Assembly: GCF_024213555.1 (NCBI RefSeq)
Contig: NZ_JANAVO010000005.1
Span: 1 to 64,000 of the forward strand
Direction of reading: 5' to 3'
Source: Allokutzneria sp. A3M-2-11 16
Lineage (GTDB): Bacteria > Actinomycetota > Actinomycetes > Mycobacteriales > Pseudonocardiaceae
DNA length: 64,000 bases
The notes under the pieces are model-generated. The model made no database searches. It was given only the letters and a program-made list of their open reading frames with translations, and was not told the origin of the DNA. Of this stretch, positions 7,490-59,790 are shown one piece after another. A program made the position numbers and the translations under genes. Every line of letters begins with the position of its first letter. Positions within the stretch are counted from its first letter, which is position 1.

Positions 7490-8095
7490 ATGCCGAAGCG
7501 GGTCGACCACGCCGAACGCCGGGAACAGCTCGCCGAGGCGCTGCTGCGGATCGTGGCCGACCGCGGCCTTGAGGCGGTGAGCCTGCGACACGTGGGCGCC
7601 GAGGCCGGGGTGACCTCCGGCATGGTCCAGCACTACTTCCGCAGCAAGGACGAGCTGATGGCCTTCGCCCTGGAGGTGGTCAGCGAGCGCGTGCAGGCGC
7701 GCGCCGCGGCGGCGATGACCGGCGCCGATTCGGCGCGGGCGGAGGTCCGCGCGCTGGTGATCTCACTGCTGCCGCTGGATGAGCCACGTCGGCTGGAGGG
7801 GCGGGTGGCACTCGCGTTCGTGTCGTACTCGACGATCCGGCCGGAGCTGGCGGCGGCGCTGCAGCAGAACACCACGGGGATGCGCGAGCACTTCGCCGAG
7901 CAGATCCGGCAGGTGTGGACGGAGGAGACCCGGCTCGGCATGACGCCGCTCCAGGCGGCGACCGGCCTGTTGGCCCTGGTGGAGGGTCTGGGCATGCACC
8001 TGCTCGGTGAGCACTACGCGCCGGAGGAGGCGGTGAGTGTGCTCGACGCGCACCTGGAGCTGCTGTTCGGTCAGTCCATGCGACGTTCGGGATAG
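7490..8095 (+). CDS. TetR family transcriptional regulator
   Basis: 201 residues. The HTH is AEALLRIVADRGLEAVSLRHVGAEAGVTSGMVQHYFRSK in two overlapping parts, ending in the signature HYFRSKDEL. The C-terminal ligand domain has the TetR_C_6-like look (RVALAFVSYSTIRPEL). It is divergent from the P450 with two operator-like repeats in the 88-bp gap, so it most likely represses that gene and itself. It overlaps the stop of the convergent aldo-keto reductase by 25 bases. Confidence 0.88.
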   Translation: MPKRVDHAERREQLAEALLRIVADRGLEAVSLRHVGAEAGVTSGMVQHYFRSKDELMAFALEVVSERVQARAAAAMTGADSARAEVRALVISLLPLDEPRRLEGRVALAFVSYSTIRPELAAALQQNTTGMREHFAEQIRQVWTEETRLGMTPLQAATGLLALVEGLGMHLLGEHYAPEEAVSVLDAHLELLFGQSMRRSG

Positions 8096-19987: not shown

Positions 19988-20099
19988 GTCTTCAAGTACC
20001 CCCGACCCCGGCTGCTGAGGTCGTTAACCGCACCCAACCCTCACCGGGGTTGGGTGCGGTTAACGACCGTTCAGGCGGGGGTTCGGTGTACTTGAAGAC
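19988..20099. repeat. 112-bp palindromic element (GTCTTCAAGTAC family), copy A
   Basis: The outer ends are GTCTTCAAGTAC and its exact complement. The inner stem is a perfect 21-bp inverted repeat (20020-20040 with 20047-20067, core GTTAACCGCACCCAACCC). It sits between two convergent genes, so it could also end transcription in both directions. A related element lies at 58566 and a solo right arm at 53932. Confidence 0.88.
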
Positions 20100-53398: not shown

Positions 53399-53869
53399 TC
53401 AGCGCCCGAGCTTGTCCGCCGCCTCGCGCTGGCGGCGGGCAACCTCGTCGGTGAACCCCACGATGGCCCGCAGCGTGTCGTCGTCGTAGTCGGCGCACAG
53501 CTCGGCCACCGTGTCGAGGTAGTCCTTGAGCAGCGCGTTCGCGCCGTGCCGCCGGTCCCGGTGCACCTCGACCAGCAGCCGCCTGCGGTCCTGCGGGTGC
53601 GGGGTCCGGCGCGCGAAGCCCTTCTCCTCCAACCGGTTGATCAGCCCGGTGATCGACGCGGGCGCCAGCCCGCACCGCCGGGACAGCTCCCCGGGGGTCA
53701 GCGCGCCGCTGTTCTCCAGCAGTTCCAACGCCTTCTCCTCGACGGGGGAGAGCCCCTGCTTGTCGGCGACGGCGGAGTGGAGGGTCACCGCGGCGGCGGT
53801 GAGCCGCCTGCCCGCGGCGAGGACCTGATCTACGAGCTCGTCCCGACTGTTGGCCACGATCATGATCAT
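53399..53869 (-). CDS. MarR family transcriptional regulator
   Basis: 156 residues with the winged-helix segment TPGELSRRCGLAPASITGLI then NRLEEKGFARRTPHPQDRRR. No clear target gene is divergent from it; the nearest rightward gene is 192 bases away. A perfect 17-bp dyad lies just before its start, suggesting autoregulation. A second ATG two codons in is possible. Confidence 0.88.
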   Translation of the reverse strand: MIMIVANSRDELVDQVLAAGRRLTAAAVTLHSAVADKQGLSPVEEKALELLENSGALTPGELSRRCGLAPASITGLINRLEEKGFARRTPHPQDRRRLLVEVHRDRRHGANALLKDYLDTVAELCADYDDDTLRAIVGFTDEVARRQREAADKLGR

Positions 53870-53878
53870 ATCGACATA

Positions 53879-53895
53879 TTCGTTCGGCGAACGAA
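53879..53895. promoter_or_regulatory. MarR operator
   Basis: TTCGTTCG-G-CGAACGAA, a perfect dyad with one central base, 9 bases upstream of the MarR start. Typical size and position for a MarR dimer site. Confidence 0.7.
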
Positions 53896-53901
53896 ATTAA
53901 A

Positions 53902-53917
53902 GCGCAACCGGTTGCGC
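53902..53917. repeat. perfect 16-bp palindrome
   Basis: GCGCAACCGGTTGCGC, directly next to the MarR operator and just before the solo repeat arm. It may be an extra binding site. Confidence 0.6.
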
Positions 53918-53931
53918 GTGCGCGCGGCGCG

Positions 53932-53984
53932 GAGTTGGGGGTGGTTTGAGACGGCTTCAGGGTGGGTCGGGGGTACTTGAAGAC
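53932..53984. repeat. solo right arm of the GTCTTCAAGTAC element
   Basis: GTTGGGGGTGGTTTGAGAC, then a G-rich tract ending GGGGGTACTTGAAGAC, matches the right half of the element at 58566. No left arm lies within reach, so this is a broken or partial copy. Confidence 0.72.
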
Positions 53985-54061
53985 GGGGGAACCAGCAGTG
54001 CTGGTAATGATAATCGGTGTCGGATAGGGTGGTCGGGTTCCGTGGTGGAGGGGAGTGCGCA

Positions 54062-54823
54062 GTGATCGTTCCCGGGGTGGTCTCGGTGACCTTCCGGCAG
54101 TTGTCCGTTCCCGAGATCGTGCGGCTGACCGCCGACGCCGGGCTCCGCGCGATCACCTGGGGCGGCGACGTCCACGTGCCGGTCGGCGACCTCGCCGCCG
54201 CCGAGCGCGCCCGGTCACTGACCGGCGACGCGGGGCTGATCGTGGAGGGCTACGGCTCCTACTACAAGGCCGGGGAGTCCGAGCCCGCCGCGTTCGCCGA
54301 CGCCCTGCGCACCGCCGTCGCGCTAGGCGCGCCAGTGATCCGGGTGTGGGCGGGTGTGACCGGAGCCGCCGACACCGACCCCGCCCGCCGCGCCGCCGTG
54401 ACCGAGGACCTGCGGCGGTGCGCCGACCTCGCCGCCGTGCACGGCACCCGGGTCGCGGTGGAGTACCACGTGGAGACGCTGACCGACGACATCGACTCCG
54501 CCACGCGGTTGTTCGACGAGGTCGACGCGCTCGTGCCGTACTGGCAGCCCAAGGAAACCCCCGAGGTGGACGCGTGCGTGAAAGAGGTGCGGTCGCTGCT
54601 GCCGAAGCTGCGTACCGTGCACGCTTTCTCGTGGGGCCCGGACGGGTTCACCGAGCGGTTGCCGCTCGCCGACCGCGCCGACCTGTGGCGGCCGGTACTC
54701 GCTGAGCTGAACGCGGACGGGCAGGACCGGTTCGTGTTGCTGGAGTTCGTTCCCGACGACTCCGTCGAACAGTTCCGAAGCGACGCCGCGGCGCTGCTGG
54801 GTTGGTCCGCTTCCGGCATTTGA
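54062..54823 (+). CDS. TIM-barrel sugar isomerase/endonuclease-like protein
   Basis: 253 residues of the AP-endonuclease-2/xylose-isomerase TIM-barrel type, with AGLRAITWGGDVHVPVGDL, APVIRVWAGV and TRVAVEYHVETLTD as barrel strands carrying metal-ligand acids. It could be a sugar isomerase or epimerase; the substrate is unknown. GTG at 54062 follows GGAGGGGAG; an earlier start at 54017 is weaker. Confidence 0.78.
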   Translation: MIVPGVVSVTFRQLSVPEIVRLTADAGLRAITWGGDVHVPVGDLAAAERARSLTGDAGLIVEGYGSYYKAGESEPAAFADALRTAVALGAPVIRVWAGVTGAADTDPARRAAVTEDLRRCADLAAVHGTRVAVEYHVETLTDDIDSATRLFDEVDALVPYWQPKETPEVDACVKEVRSLLPKLRTVHAFSWGPDGFTERLPLADRADLWRPVLAELNADGQDRFVLLEFVPDDSVEQFRSDAAALLGWSASGI

Positions 54824-55161
54824 TCCGGTTCGGCGTGAAGTAGGCTTCACCATTCCCGCGCGGGGGATGAGCGTGCCGCCGGACGCGCTCGGCCCAGCGG
54901 CGGCGACCTGCCGACGGCGCTGGTGGCGGGGTGCGCCGCAGCCTGAAAACAACAGTTTGACTTGTGGGTAAATATCCCTGGTTACTCGCTCCGATAATCT
55001 CCATATCTATTGCAGTTGTGTGCACGGACATTTTCTGAGTATACGATCCCCATGTCGCAATAAAAGAGCTTTGCGGGTGGGCGATCTTGTTCCGACTTCT
55101 CGGTCGCCTTACTCGGTGCTGTGTCCAAGCCATCACTGCGTATGAACTAGCGAGGTTATCC
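54824..55161. other. AT-richer intergenic region upstream of the enduracididine cassette
   Basis: 338 bp. The stretch 54950-55080 is clearly poorer in GC than the rest of the window (GGTAAATATCCCTGG, CTCCATATCTATTGC, TGAGTATACGATCCCC, GCAATAAAAGAGC). It probably holds the promoter and control sites of the cassette, and could attract Lsr2. No gene or tRNA is seen. Confidence 0.65.
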
Positions 55162-56322
55162 GTGAGCGCAGTACACATCGCCCAGACGAAGCCGGTAGCC
55201 TCGAAGGACGTCGAGGCCAACCTCACGCAGCTGGAGTACCTGGCGCTGAACAGCTCCATGAACCTGGCTGACGGCCACGCCCGCCAGCTCCTCACCCCGA
55301 CCCAGGCGGCGATCATCGACGACCTGCCGTCGATCTTCCGGGAGTCCGAGACGACCCCCGTCGAGGAGCTGGAGATCCGCGCCCACCAGGCGTTCTTCGG
55401 GGTGCTCGGGCAGCACTCCTATCCCGGGTCGGACGGGCGCGTGCTGGCCTGCTACTCGTCCTCGGTCGCGATGGAGATCCTGTCGCGCTCGCTGGTGACC
55501 AGGATCGACCGGATGGCGCTGGTCCACCCGACCTTCGACAACATCCCGGACATCCTGCGCGGCGTCGGCATCGAGCTCCTCCCGCTGGAGGAGGACGTGC
55601 TGCACGGCGGCGACCTCGGCCCCGGGCTGCTGGGCTCCGTCGGCGCCGTCTTCGTCACCACGCCGAACAACCCCACCGGCCGCGTCGTGCCCGAGGACCG
55701 CCTGCGCCGCCTCGCCGAGGAGTGCCGCGAGCACGACGTCGTGCTCTGCCTGGACACCTCCTTCCGCGGCTTCGACATCTCCGCGCAGTACGACCACTAC
55801 GCGGTGCTGGAGGCCAGCGGCTGCCGCTGGGCGGTCGTGGAGGACACCGGCAAGCTGTGGCCGACCCTGGACCTCAAGATCGGCTGGCTGGTCACCTCGG
55901 CCAACCTGGGCCTGCCCACCGGCAAGATCTACTCCGACATCCTGCTCGGGGTCTCGCCGATGATCCTCACCCTGGTGCGGCGCTTCGCCGAGGACGCGGC
56001 CGACGGCGGCCTGGCCGACCTGCAGAAGTTCATCCAGAACAACCGCACCCTGCTGCGCACCGCCCTGGACGGGGTGCCCGGCGTCCACTTCCCGGACCTG
56101 CACAGCCGGGGCAGCGTGGAGCGCGTCCACACCGGCACCCGCTCCTCGATGGACGTGTGGTCGGGGCTGCGCGACCGGGGCGTGTACGCGCTGCCGTGCC
56201 ACAAGTTCCACTGGGCCGACCCGGCGGGCGGGGACACCACGCTGCGCATCGCGCTGGCGCGCTCCACCGAGTCGCTCACCGACTGCGCCAAGATCATCCG
56301 CGAAGTCCTGCTGGACCGCTGA
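55162..56322 (+). CDS. MppP-like PLP-dependent arginine oxidase/hydroxylase
   Basis: 386 residues. The sequence closely follows MppP/EndP enzymes: NLTQLEYLALNSSMNLADGH, LACYSSSVAMEILSRSL, ALVHPTFDNIPDIL and FVTTPNNPTGRVV. The PLP lysine lies in VEDTGKLWPTLDLK (Lys about 231). In this family the enzyme uses O2 and PLP, without other cofactors, to convert L-arginine to 4-hydroxy-2-ketoarginine, the first step to enduracididine. GTG at 55162 begins the conserved region. It overlaps the next gene (TGATG). The assignment is from recalled family sequence; it has not been tested. Confidence 0.86.
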   Translation: MSAVHIAQTKPVASKDVEANLTQLEYLALNSSMNLADGHARQLLTPTQAAIIDDLPSIFRESETTPVEELEIRAHQAFFGVLGQHSYPGSDGRVLACYSSSVAMEILSRSLVTRIDRMALVHPTFDNIPDILRGVGIELLPLEEDVLHGGDLGPGLLGSVGAVFVTTPNNPTGRVVPEDRLRRLAEECREHDVVLCLDTSFRGFDISAQYDHYAVLEASGCRWAVVEDTGKLWPTLDLKIGWLVTSANLGLPTGKIYSDILLGVSPMILTLVRRFAEDAADGGLADLQKFIQNNRTLLRTALDGVPGVHFPDLHSRGSVERVHTGTRSSMDVWSGLRDRGVYALPCHKFHWADPAGGDTTLRIALARSTESLTDCAKIIREVLLDR

Positions 56323-57497
56323 TGACCACCGTCGAGGCCGGGTCCCACAGTCGCAGGTGGACGCCGGAGGTGGTCCAGGGCGGGGAACCGGCCGAGCCGT
56401 ACAACCTCGGCCCCGGCTACCTGGACCAGGAACTGCTGCCGGTCGGCCTGATGCGCGAGGCCTACACCGCGGCGCTCGCCGAGTACGGCTCGGCGGCGCT
56501 GGGCTACGGCCTCGACAACGGCGCGCTGGACCTGCGGGCCGCACTGGCCGCCCGAGTGTCCACAGTGGATGGAATCGCGTGCGCCGCGGAGCAGGTGCTC
56601 GTCACCGCGGGCACGACCCAGGCGCTGAACCTGGTGTGCACGGCGCTGGCGGCACCCGGAGACCGGGTGCTGCTGGACCCGCACTGCTACGACCTGGGCA
56701 AGCAGATCTTCACCGACGCCGGGCTGGTCCCGGTCGCCGTCCCCGGCGACGCCGACGGGATGGACCCCGCCGCACTGGAGCGGGCGCTGCGCGGCGGGCG
56801 CACCGGATTCGTCTACCTGAACCCGACCTTCCACAACCCCACCGGCATCGTCGTGCCCCGGCACCGGCGCGCGGAGCTGGTCCGGGTCGCCACCGGCGGC
56901 GGGGTGCTCGTGGTGGAGGACGACGCCTACGCGGAACTGGGCCTGGACGGGACCCGCACACCGCCCTCGCTGGCGGCCCTCGCCGGCTACGAGGGGGTGG
57001 TCCGCCTCGGCTCGTTCGCGAAGACGCTGGCCCCCGGGTTGCGGCTCGGCTGGTTGCAGGCCTCGACCGGGCTGGCCGAGCGGCTGGTCACACGGGGGTC
57101 CTTCGTCAGCGGCGGCTGCCTCAACCACACCACCTCGCTCGCGGTCACCGCGCTGCTGCTGGACGGCGGGTACGACCGCCACCTGCGGTGGCTGCGGGCC
57201 CAGTTGGCCGCGCGCCGGGACGCCCTCGCCGAGACGCTGCGCGCCCGGCTGCCCGAGGAGATCGACTTCGCCCTGCCGGGCGGCGGTTTCTTCCTGTGGC
57301 TGCGCGCCCGCGGTGAGGTCGCCGAGGCCGACCTGGTGGGGGCCGCGAGCCGGGCGGGCGTCGCCGTCGCGCCCGGCTCGCGGTTCGGGTCCTCCTCGGG
57401 CGTGCGCGTGCGCCTGGCCTACAGCTTCACCTCGCCACAGCGGCTGACCGAGGCCGCCTCCCGGCTCGGCGCCGCGTGGCGGACGATTCTCGCCTAG
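56322..57497 (+). CDS. MppQ-like PLP aminotransferase
   Basis: 391 residues, fold-type I aminotransferase. It has NPTFHNPTGIVVP, VVEDDAYAEL and the PLP lysine in RLGSFAKTLAPGLRLGW. In the mannopeptimycin/enduracidin route, the MppQ/EndQ step is proposed to transfer an amino group to 2-ketoenduracididine, giving L-enduracididine. Sequence alone makes it a general aminotransferase; the position between the P- and R-type genes makes this role likely. It starts inside the previous stop codon and ends 7 bases before the next gene. Confidence 0.84.
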   Translation: MTTVEAGSHSRRWTPEVVQGGEPAEPYNLGPGYLDQELLPVGLMREAYTAALAEYGSAALGYGLDNGALDLRAALAARVSTVDGIACAAEQVLVTAGTTQALNLVCTALAAPGDRVLLDPHCYDLGKQIFTDAGLVPVAVPGDADGMDPAALERALRGGRTGFVYLNPTFHNPTGIVVPRHRRAELVRVATGGGVLVVEDDAYAELGLDGTRTPPSLAALAGYEGVVRLGSFAKTLAPGLRLGWLQASTGLAERLVTRGSFVSGGCLNHTTSLAVTALLLDGGYDRHLRWLRAQLAARRDALAETLRARLPEEIDFALPGGGFFLWLRARGEVAEADLVGAASRAGVAVAPGSRFGSSSGVRVRLAYSFTSPQRLTEAASRLGAAWRTILA

Positions 57498-57504
57498 GAG
57501 TTCC

Positions 57505-58284
57505 ATGAGCCCGCACGGTTACAGCCTTCCGTTGTCCCCCAACGGTTTGTCCTCGATGATCACTCCGCCGCCGTGGCACTTCGCCGGTGAGGTGATCATG
57601 GTCGACTACCGCGTCGACCCCGAGCGCGCCGCGTCGTTCCTGCCGCCCGGGCTCACCTTGGGGGCTGATCCCGGCGCCGCGGCCGCCGTGTTCGCGGAGT
57701 GGAACTGGTGCTCGGACGATTCCGCGGAGCTGGCGGAGCCTCAGCGCTGCCAGTTCGCCGAGTTCCTGATCTTCATCGCCTGCGAGTACCAGGGCCGCCC
57801 GCTGGCGCGCTGCCCCTACGCGTGGGTGGACAAGTCCGTGCCGATGATGCGCGGGTGGGTGCAGGGCATGCCCAAGCAACTCGGCTCGATCCACCAGACT
57901 CGCCCCAAGCTCGTCGGCCGCACCGGGCCAACGCCGGGTTCAGGAGGTCGTTACGACGGCACCCTGTCGGTCAACGGCCGTCGCGTCGTCGAGGCCACCG
58001 TGACCTCTCAGGACGTCCTCGCCGAACCGCCGCTGCTGCACAACATTCCCTTGGTGCACACCAAGACCTCGCCCGCGTGGATCGACGGCGAGCAGCCCGT
58101 TTCGCAGCTGGTGACCTCGCGGGTGGACGGCGTGGAATTCTCGCCGATCCGCACCGGCCCGGCTTCGCTGCGCTTCCACGACATGATCGACGCCGACTTC
58201 GCGGGCTTGGCTCCGGTGTCCGTGGGTGCCGGCTACACGTTCCACTACGCCGAAACCCTCCACGGCGGCACCCTGCTCACCTGA
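57505..58284 (+). CDS. MppR-like acetoacetate-decarboxylase-superfamily cyclase
   Basis: 259 residues of the acetoacetate decarboxylase superfamily. WHFAGEVIMVDYRVDPERA, LIFIACEYQGRPLARCPY and the Schiff-base lysine region WVQGMPKQLGSIHQT (Lys about 124) are seen. MppR/EndR from enduracididine clusters belongs to this superfamily and is thought to turn 4-hydroxy-2-ketoarginine into the cyclic 2-ketoenduracididine. AGGAG precedes the ATG, overlapping the upstream stop. An inverted repeat after the stop (58301) may end the operon. Confidence 0.87.
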   Translation: MSPHGYSLPLSPNGLSSMITPPPWHFAGEVIMVDYRVDPERAASFLPPGLTLGADPGAAAAVFAEWNWCSDDSAELAEPQRCQFAEFLIFIACEYQGRPLARCPYAWVDKSVPMMRGWVQGMPKQLGSIHQTRPKLVGRTGPTPGSGGRYDGTLSVNGRRVVEATVTSQDVLAEPPLLHNIPLVHTKTSPAWIDGEQPVSQLVTSRVDGVEFSPIRTGPASLRFHDMIDADFAGLAPVSVGAGYTFHYAETLHGGTLLT

Positions 58285-58300
58285 GTGCGAGCGGGGCGCG

Positions 58301-58343
58301 GCGGCCGCGTGAACGCTACTGGGGGATTGGCCCACGCGGCCGC
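58301..58343 (+). terminator. terminator of the mpp-like operon
   Basis: GCGGCCGCGTG and its exact complement form an 11-bp stem with a 21-base loop, 16 bases after the mppR-like stop. It has no T run. It is likely an end signal or RNA-stabilising hairpin. Confidence 0.65.
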
Positions 58344-58565
58344 CGGGGAGCCCTGCAGGGACCCTGCTCCAGTCAAGCAAGGCACCCGGCGCGCGTCGTC
58401 AGTGCTGGGTGGGAGGAGCGGTACGCAGCTGGCTGTACCTCCACGTGGACGACACCCCCCGGTGGGATGTACTCCGCTACGCCGCGGGGGAGTCGACCGC
58501 CACTCCACAGGCGTAGTCACCAGGCGTAGTCAGCCCAGGTCCGCACTCCGGCTCAGAGTTCCCCG

Positions 58566-58684
58566 GTCTTCAAGTACCCCCTACCCCGCCCCCAGGTGTC
58601 CGTAACCGCCCCCAACCCCGCGCCGCCGACGGGGTTGGGGGCGGTTTGAGACTGCTGGGGCGGGGGTCCGTCGTACTTGAAGAC
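58566..58684. repeat. 119-bp palindromic element (GTCTTCAAGTAC family), copy B
   Basis: The ends are GTCTTCAAGTAC and its exact complement. The inner stem has GTAACCGCCCCCAACCCC paired with GGGGTTGGGGGCGGTT. It is related in layout and sequence to the element at 19988-20099. Confidence 0.86.
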
Positions 58685-58737
58685 TGCCCAACGTGGAATG
58701 GGTGATCTTCCGGGGCGGGTGTGCGAGATTGGTCCGC

Positions 58738-59790
58738 GTGACTGCCACGATGCTCGCCGGACGGCTCGACCTGATCACCAAGCGCTTCGCGGTGGAGGAG
58801 GTCCCCGTACCGCGACCGGCGCCGAACGAGGCCCTGGTCGCCGTGCGCGCCTCCGGGGTCTGCCTGTCCGACCTGCACCTCATCGCGGGCGTGTTCAACC
58901 CCTCGCGCACCGACGCGACGACGGTGACCCTCGGCCACGAGATCGCCGGGGTGATCGAGGCGGTCGGCGCGGACGTGCCGGACCGGCTGCGGGTCGGCCA
59001 GCGCGTCGCGCTCCAGGCCGGGCAGTCCTGCGGCGGCTGCGACAACTGCGTGCGCGCGCTGAGCCCGTGCCTGAACGTGCTCACCCGCGGCGTGGACTAC
59101 GACGGGGGCTGGGCGGAGTACACAGTCGCCCGCCACGACACAGTCGTCCCGATCCCCGACAGCCTCCCGTTCGAGCAGGCCGCGATCATCCCCGACGCGG
59201 TCTCCACCCCGTTCGCCGCGATCGTGACGACCGCGCAGGTCAAGGTCGGCGAGTCGGCGGGCGTGTGGGGTATCGGCGGGCTCGGCACGCACGCCGTGCA
59301 GATCCTCCGCCTGGTCGGCGCGGCCCCGATCATCGCGATCGACCCGAACCCGGCGGCCCGCGAGCGCGCCCTCACCTTCGGCGCCGACACCGCCCTGAAT
59401 CCGCTCGACGAGGACTTCGCCGGGCAGCTCCGCGCGGCCACCGGCGGCAAGGGCCTGGACCACGCCTTCGACTTCGCCGGAGCCGGAGCCGCGCGCACGC
59501 AGGGCGTGAAGTCCTTGGCACGCAATGGGAAACTCGTACTCGCCGGGCTCACGCCGGAGCAGCTGGAAGTGCCGCACAGCATCGTCTTCTGCTACGAACA
59601 GCAGCAGGTGCTCGGCCACTACGGCTCGCTCCCGCAGCACGTGGAGGACCTGATCGGGCTCGCGGGGCACGGGCGGCTGGACTTCTCCCGGTCGATCACC
59701 GACCGCATTCCCCTCGCCGAGGCCGACCGTGCGGTGAAGCAGTTGCACGACAAGGTCGGCGACCCGATCCGCCTCGTCCTCACCCCGTAA
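58738..59790 (+). CDS. zinc-binding alcohol dehydrogenase
   Basis: 350 residues of the medium-chain dehydrogenase superfamily. Catalytic zinc ligands are in SGVCLSDLH and GHEIAGVIEAVG. The four-Cys structural zinc site is SCGGCDNCVRALSPC. The NAD(P) fold is GIGGLGTHAVQI. It oxidises or reduces an alcohol/aldehyde that cannot be named. GTG at 58738 is favoured by length. It is convergent with the deleted quinone reductase, with stops overlapping. Confidence 0.88.
   Translation: MTATMLAGRLDLITKRFAVEEVPVPRPAPNEALVAVRASGVCLSDLHLIAGVFNPSRTDATTVTLGHEIAGVIEAVGADVPDRLRVGQRVALQAGQSCGGCDNCVRALSPCLNVLTRGVDYDGGWAEYTVARHDTVVPIPDSLPFEQAAIIPDAVSTPFAAIVTTAQVKVGESAGVWGIGGLGTHAVQILRLVGAAPIIAIDPNPAARERALTFGADTALNPLDEDFAGQLRAATGGKGLDHAFDFAGAGAARTQGVKSLARNGKLVLAGLTPEQLEVPHSIVFCYEQQQVLGHYGSLPQHVEDLIGLAGHGRLDFSRSITDRIPLAEADRAVKQLHDKVGDPIRLVLTP

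Follow-up and report, generated by a model that had tools for sequence, protein, structure and literature searches.

An MppP-MppQ-MppR-like cassette in Allokutzneria sp. A3M-2-11 16, probably supplying a distant non-ribosomal peptide synthetase cluster

In the present study a stretch of 64,000 nucleotides from Allokutzneria sp. A3M-2-11 16 (contig NZ_JANAVO010000005.1 of assembly GCF_024213555.1, positions 1 to 64,000; hereafter the window) was analysed with regard to three tandem genes at 55162-58284, for which sequence comparison confirmed that they encode intact MppP-, MppQ- and MppR-like enzymes of L-enduracididine biosynthesis. These genes probably form a precursor cassette that is unlinked to, and separate in ancestry from, a non-ribosomal peptide synthetase (NRPS) cluster elsewhere in the genome (on a contig here called C3), to which it would supply L-enduracididine in trans. 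The chemistry is known, the architecture is unusual: in a literature search on enduracididine and unlinked pathways, with subscription papers mostly outside its reach, no title was recognised as describing such an arrangement.

Identity of the cassette enzymes

All three frames are intact among the open reading frames (ORFs) of the window and follow each other on the plus strand. The mppP-like gene (55162..56322, 386 aa, start GTG) encodes a putative pyridoxal phosphate (PLP)- and O2-dependent L-arginine oxidase/hydroxylase, the mppQ-like gene (56322..57497, 391 aa, start ATG) a PLP aminotransferase assigned to the last step to L-enduracididine, and the mppR-like gene (57505..58284, 259 aa, start ATG) a cyclase of the acetoacetate-decarboxylase fold. 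A first-pass annotation made from the sequence had spoken of three overlapping genes, which holds for mppP and mppQ, as the ATG of the latter and the stop codon of the former have one base in common, but not for mppR, which starts 7 bp past mppQ behind a clear ribosome-binding site (AGGAG).

The top matches in the PDB were MppP itself (5dj1, E 6.3e-160, residues 17-384), MppQ itself, not a generic aminotransferase (8tn2, E 1.3e-124, second-best match 2.9e-44), and MppR itself (4jm3, E 1.5e-111). Against the NCBIfam models, MppP reached 468.1 bits on TIGR04462 (equivalog cut-off 450) and MppR 410 bits on TIGR04460 (cut-off 380), the latter scoring 20.5 bits on the acetoacetate decarboxylase model. 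Twelve of 12 checked positions were identical between the window protein and Streptomyces wadayamensis MppP (offset 10); these are what we take to be the PLP lysine, the aspartates and the N-terminal T/E/H of the S. wadayamensis enzyme. When ten MppP positions were tracked over homologues, 36 of them close and 11 divergent, nine proved invariant and S200 variable, while T22, E25 and H39 were present in 35 of the 36 close homologues (gapped in one) and in all 11 divergent ones. In MppR, K124 (motif GMPKQ) and E250 were invariant in 27 of 27 MppR sequences; presumably they are the active-site lysine and glutamate, residues 156 and 283 of the 4jm3 chain. The annotation had thus identified the enzymes rightly, and top matches to unrelated aminotransferases and plain acetoacetate decarboxylases without the key residues, which it had named as counter-evidence, were not seen.

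The same three enzymes are encoded by mppP/mppQ/mppR of mannopeptimycin and endP/endQ/endR of enduracidin. By analogy, MppP would oxidise L-arginine to 4-hydroxy-2-ketoarginine, which MppR would cyclise and MppQ would then transaminate to L-enduracididine, following the chemistry of the homologues, where MppP yields a gamma-hydroxy ketoacid, MppR cyclises it via a lysine and MppQ transaminates (PMC10367076).

A candidate partner on contig C3

In mannopeptimycin and enduracidin biosynthesis these genes reside within the antibiotic's own cluster (PMC5238550), whereas the probable partner of the window cassette lies elsewhere. The cassette is situated on contig C39 (302,982 bp), the end of which is the left end of the window. 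None of 61 condensation-domain matches in the genome fell on this contig and no adenylation (A) domain was present among the genes called in its first 118 kb, so that the local lack of NRPS genes reported in the annotation was correct and the linkage typical of mannopeptimycin and enduracidin clusters is not found here. Of the protein clusters that occur in at least three MppP loci, the window has none besides those of P, Q and R.

Elsewhere in the genome, the cluster at C3:52,400-78,787 is collinear and orthologous with clusters that flank P-Q-R in five relatives, known from sequence alone (Goodfellowiella, Actinokineospora, Streptoalloteichus and two Amycolatopsis; loci L056-L060). It begins with a regulator (C3:52,400-53,341; 51-53% identity), followed by an MbtH gene, a SyrP-like TauD gene (C3:53,557-54,492; 70-75%), a second, GntD-like TauD gene ending at C3:55,613 (57-63% to all five), a first NRPS gene (C3:55,650-64,583; 52-55% to all five) and a second one from C3:64,580 (59-61% to all five). 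A PF00144 beta-lactamase-like protein (C3:76,492-77,583; 49-50%, matched in three of the five) and a major facilitator superfamily (MFS) transporter (C3:77,573-78,787; 61-66% to all five) complete it. Downstream of the transporter the relatives carry a histidine kinase, a response regulator, a PMT-like mannosyltransferase gene and, at the end, P-Q-R, whereas on C3 genes for a luciferase-like protein, COX1 and SpoIIE follow and the P-Q-R set of Allokutzneria, which is of another lineage, stands on C39. The PMT-like gene of the relatives was unmatched by the called genes of C3:14001-151081, and the window is outside that protein cluster.

Six A domains were read on the C3 cluster. That of module 5 (C3:70,331-71,929) has the code DLAVAGAVD at the usual nine positions, in what we take to be their numbering. 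Its distribution follows that of MppP: among 390 genomes of the family, 18 (Allokutzneria included) possess an MppP of at least 62% identity and 26 a domain like that of module 5 (E <= 1e-140). All but one of the 18 MppP genomes are among these 26, together with nine genomes that lack an MppP match at E <= 1e-60. Position 278 of the best domain is Val or Ile in 17 of 17 MppP genomes and Glu (eight) or Ala (one), never Val/Ile, in the nine genomes lacking a close MppP; three of the MppP genomes read display Glu-/Ala-type second domains in addition. Fisher's test gave 3e-7 for 17/0 versus 0/9, with species that are not independent and the three best candidates per genome scored. Outside the family, 17 genomes were reached via named loci, and 13 of them have a match of 55-62% identity, always of the Val/Ile type and roughly 8-18 kb from MppP (coordinates compared by hand). 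As for the other four, Microtetraspora and Arthrobacter showed no such domain, Nonomuraea one of 44% and Rhodococcus one of 50% identity, the last with the code DLGVAGAID and on a contig other than that of MppP in a fragmented draft. The candidate for the enduracididine A domain that the annotation had proposed to look for elsewhere in the genome is module 5, which is predicted to load enduracididine.

A second line of evidence comes from the GntD-like TauD protein, which scored 475.8 bits (cut-off 345) on NF041363, the model of L-enduracididine beta-hydroxylases of the GntD/MppO type. The cyanobacterial guanitoxin route with GntC and GntD passes via L-enduracididine, and it is the GntD beta-hydroxylase model that the C3 protein matches; GntC differs from MppR in being a PLP cyclase with gamma-hydroxyarginine as its substrate (PMC10367076).

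Taken together, L-enduracididine would be set free in the cell for use in trans by the C3 cluster, where the A domain with the code DLAVAGAVD would load it and the GntD/MppO-type dioxygenase would probably hydroxylate it at the beta position. The product may be a cyclic hexapeptide, given the six A domains, released by the PF00144 beta-lactamase-like protein as a putative cyclase of the SurE/MppK type. Comparable features, namely a standalone SurE-type cyclase, mostly hexapeptides and beta-hydroxylation by a non-haem iron oxygenase, are reported for the desotamide family of cyclic peptides, and the mannopeptimycin cluster has the SurE cyclase MppK (PMC7459860); in the available parts of that review enduracididine is mentioned just for its hydroxylation in mannopeptimycin biosynthesis. 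A contribution from outside the peptide's cluster, as proposed here, is described for cyclofaulknamycin of Streptomyces albus, where a cyclic-arginine biosynthesis enzyme is encoded elsewhere (PMC8399532); there, however, it concerns one capreomycidine aminotransferase, the mutant of which still makes some product, while here the whole three-gene pathway stands apart.

Such separation is exceptional. In the family, 17 other genomes have a close MppP, and 16 of these carry it on the same contig as the matching A domain, at a distance of 2.9-25.5 kb; of the genomes with both, Allokutzneria alone has them unlinked. The distance from the cassette to the closer end of C39 is 55,161 bp and that from the C3 cluster to the closer end of its contig 52,399 bp, so that the two must be separated by about 107 kb or more. 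In the congener G013, assembled as one contig, the corresponding sites are at 1.83 Mb (cassette) and 2.82 Mb (C3 cluster), which would place them about 0.99 Mb apart in Allokutzneria if the gene order of G013 is kept.

Ancestry and rival explanations

Neither of two congeners (G013 and G014) was found to have a close MppP. In G014 the matching flanks of the cassette site are 28 bp apart (G014:C144:8709-8738), and in G013 the site (G013:C1:1828428-1831066) is occupied by 2.6 kb, in which a short ORF matching no Pfam family is accompanied by genes for a histidine kinase and a response regulator. The interval 54824-58692 of the window is therefore a variable site, with three contents in three congeneric species between the same TIM-barrel and alcohol dehydrogenase genes. 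The C3 site spans 29.6 kb in Allokutzneria and 2.6 kb in G013. As counterparts are missing at both G013 sites, both gene sets were either inserted relative to G013 or lost there. The idea that the kinase and regulator of G013 are the lost tail of a unit P-Q-R-kinase-regulator was not used, the similarities of the kinase being ambiguous: it is 55-56% identical to kinases of three Lentzea P-Q-R clusters and 57% identical to kinases of three genomes (G099, G168, G127), all without a close MppP.

Trees of nine taxa, together with approximately unbiased (AU) tests of alternative groupings, gave different neighbours to the cassette and to the C3 cluster. P, Q and R of Allokutzneria grouped with Saccharothrix (support 100/99, 100/99 and 91/95), while in the trees of the A domain and the NRPS end Saccharothrix joined Lentzea (100/99 and 100/100) and Allokutzneria stood separate. 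A grouping of Allokutzneria with the Goodfellowiella set was rejected for P (p 2e-17) and Q (6e-4), and one with Saccharothrix was rejected for the A domain (8e-4) and the NRPS end (3e-34). The cassette of Saccharothrix sp. ALI-22-I (L077) is the closest relative of P (72% identity) and Q (62-63%) besides being the tree sister of R; this strain has a different NRPS, the matching A domain of which lies 2.9 kb from the P gene. In a tree of 47 MppP rows, Allokutzneria and Saccharothrix stayed together, next to Rhodococcus EPR-157 and Arthrobacter UM1. Because the P and Q trees disagree with the NRPS trees, the history of the cassette, or at any rate of its P and Q genes, differs from that of the cluster it probably serves. 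Either of the two, cassette or NRPS cluster, may have moved.

Several observations weigh against the reading of a separately acquired cassette serving C3. MppQ scored 481.2 bits on TIGR04461, its best family, yet below the equivalog cut-off of 540. Five other MppQ proteins from P-Q-R clusters, at 480-509 bits, stay likewise under it, but some MppQ do pass, as the best of 15 aligned reaches E 7.3e-201, and the window protein is for that reason claimed as MppQ-like only. The nearest solved structures of the second C3 TauD protein are L-arginine beta-hydroxylases (E 3e-85), and it reached 400.3 bits on the VioC model (cut-off 418.6), so that arginine is a possible substrate as well. The enduracididine code given in PMC12283262, DAEDVAAMIK, the sole published one that was found, is unlike DLAVAGAVD, so that the substrate of module 5 is assigned by association. 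Between the upstream region of the cassette and the start of the C3 cluster, where the compared piece is mostly coding, no motif was shared beyond what shuffled sequences gave. In the AU tests, Allokutzneria with the Goodfellowiella set was unrejected for R (p 0.064) and Allokutzneria with Saccharothrix unrejected for the MFS transporter (p 0.34), and R is 71% identical to that of Amycolatopsis bullii and 66% to that of Saccharothrix. Finally, the one-contig genome G090 has an intact stand-alone P-Q-R (G090:C1 about 7,404,000-7,407,230; L262/L263) with no NRPS within about 18 kb on each side, the only NRPS-like match there being a lone AMP-binding enzyme in the vicinity of a glycosyltransferase and an AfsR-like regulator; no Val/Ile-type A domain was found in that genome, the best similar domain being 44% identical with an unrelated code.

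G090 demonstrates that a cassette can exist without such an NRPS partner, and hence some weight stays with a true orphan, the enduracididine of which would remain free or enter a product made without an NRPS, while the C3 module takes arginine or another amino acid. The lack of a match of at least 55% to the module-5 domain in the cassette genomes of Microtetraspora, Nonomuraea and Arthrobacter points the same way, as does free enduracididine in legume seeds (PMC5238550). Nevertheless we regard an orphan as unlikely, for the Allokutzneria genome has a Val278-type A domain, which occurs in none of the nine similar-domain genomes without a close MppP, and an enzyme of the enduracididine beta-hydroxylase type is encoded within the same C3 cluster. 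Somewhat less improbable, but still not expected, is simple relocation, in which the cassette would be the broken-off tail of the C3 cluster; it differs only in origin, with supply in trans being the same. The kinase, regulator, mannosyltransferase-like and P-Q-R genes that end Goodfellowiella-type clusters and are absent behind the C3 transporter would fit it, and so would the identity of R to A. bullii; against it, the significant AU tests place P and Q with Saccharothrix, away from the lineage to which the C3 NRPS belongs, with the caveats that Saccharothrix itself could be recombinant and that R is undecided.

The annotation had weighed an orphan or a distant cluster against a different cyclised guanidine. 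A distant cluster is favoured by the orthologous C3 NRPS cluster, the A-domain code that tracks MppP and the beta-hydroxylase-type enzyme, while another cyclised guanidine gained no positive support here. That the enzymes make the latter, or a hydroxylated arginine derivative, is very unlikely: the related PLP oxidases RohP and Ind4 do feed other products (PMC7497351), but P and R exceed the equivalog cut-offs, the best match of each of the three proteins is an enduracididine enzyme, and 23 of the 33 named MppP loci carry P-Q-R as a contiguous set. A decaying relic or an assembly artefact would agree with a cassette that is unlinked from its partner at a site of differing content among congeners, yet it is hardly credible in view of the intact frames, tight spacing, clear mppR ribosome-binding site and conserved residues and of both flanks being syntenic with two congeners.

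The cassette may moreover be a portable three-gene supply module, which travels alone, lands at a variable site and restores or extends a precursor-less NRPS cluster in trans and across lineages; this wider suggestion is tentative, and we hold it more doubtful than not. Were it true, stand-alone cassettes such as those of Allokutzneria and G090 would constitute a hidden class missed by cluster-based genome mining. Mannopeptimycin, enduracidin and teixobactin, which act against resistant Gram-positive bacteria, are antibiotics that contain enduracididine; if the supply genes can lie a megabase off, cluster-based mining would overlook producers or wrongly predict arginine for this residue. The distinction between Val/Ile and Glu at position 278 offers a direct, testable rule to predict enduracididine in actinobacterial peptides, and cassette and NRPS, with their discordant ancestry, make a clean test case for precursor-pathway swaps between antibiotic assembly lines.

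Flanking regions and other MppP loci

The near neighbours of the cassette are generic (MarR, TIM-barrel, zinc alcohol dehydrogenase, MmyB-type regulator, aldo/keto reductase). On the left lies a TIM-barrel (AP_endonuc_2) gene (54017..54823, plus strand; Pfam PF01261), conserved in both congeners, and on the right a zinc alcohol dehydrogenase gene (58693..59790, plus strand; PF08240/PF00107); both are outside the pathway, and in G014 the latter directly follows the former. The region upstream of mppP (54824..55161, plus strand) is presumed to hold the promoter and 5' leader of the operon. The AT-rich stretch noted there in the annotation was recovered, with 57.9% G+C over 54824-55165 compared with about 68-76% in most adjoining 500-base windows. 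A scan of this region revealed no sigma-70-type site, and a search of 53800-58800 against Rfam, which includes 58558-58692, no match at E <= 0.1.

Behind mppR, the intergenic segment 58285..58525 is common to G013 at the same chromosomal site, where 58294-58438 and 58465-58522 (83-84% identity) directly precede the histidine-kinase gene. The hairpin that the annotation had placed after the cassette proved to be a dispersed palindromic repeat of 119 bp (58566..58684) between mppR and the alcohol dehydrogenase gene, an imperfect palindrome with the ends GTCTTCAAGTAC/GTACTTGAAGAC and a G+C-rich core, which could possibly act as a two-way terminator. Copies of 111-122 bp occur at about 40 places in the genome among the matches listed, while the matches in the two congeners are weaker and less numerous; further sites in the window are 19988-20099 and, in part, 53924-53992. 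Its 12-bp terminal inverted repeat is intact in 15 of 18 copies retrieved and, within the window, at two places. C3 carries a dispersed repeat of another kind, about 110-190 bp long (L090 about 7,891-8,061; G000:C3 about 83,900), with ten matches listed in G013.

Apart from the contiguous sets, the 33 named MppP loci comprise two P-Q pairs with R about 7 kb off, one P-R pair without Q, one locus cut by a contig end and six with P only (44-49% identity). The P-Q pairs, in Microtetraspora and Nonomuraea (L079, L080), have R on the other strand and no A-domain match of at least 55%, and they represent a different enduracididine context. In the P-R pair of Arthrobacter sp. UM1 (L061) no Q is present on the locus, so that another aminotransferase must complete the pathway or the product differs. 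The P-only loci (L082-L087), from Streptomyces and Actinomadura, belong to a divergent MppP lineage and carry neither Q nor R; an arginase-family cluster member is found in five of the six, and the lineage probably serves another arginine-derived product.

A further code, DTEDMGFVD, common to the five relatives and C3, was considered as an enduracididine code and rejected, as it is missing from other P-Q-R clusters and present in a second C3 NRPS cluster without a cassette; it resembles the arginine pattern of PMC12283262. This second cluster (G000:C3:118279-146462) encodes NRPS proteins of 6372 and 2156 aa and three A domains with a DT-type code; judged by similarity, it is bounded by MFS-like and PF00144-like genes. 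The genome also possesses a second MppP-like arginine oxidase (G000:C33:516962-518020; L052), which is 34% identical to the window MppP and about equally distant from MppP, 6c3a and 7n79, the last two presumably RohP and Plu4. It is located some 20 kb from an NRPS, the first A domain of which reads DVAESGAID.

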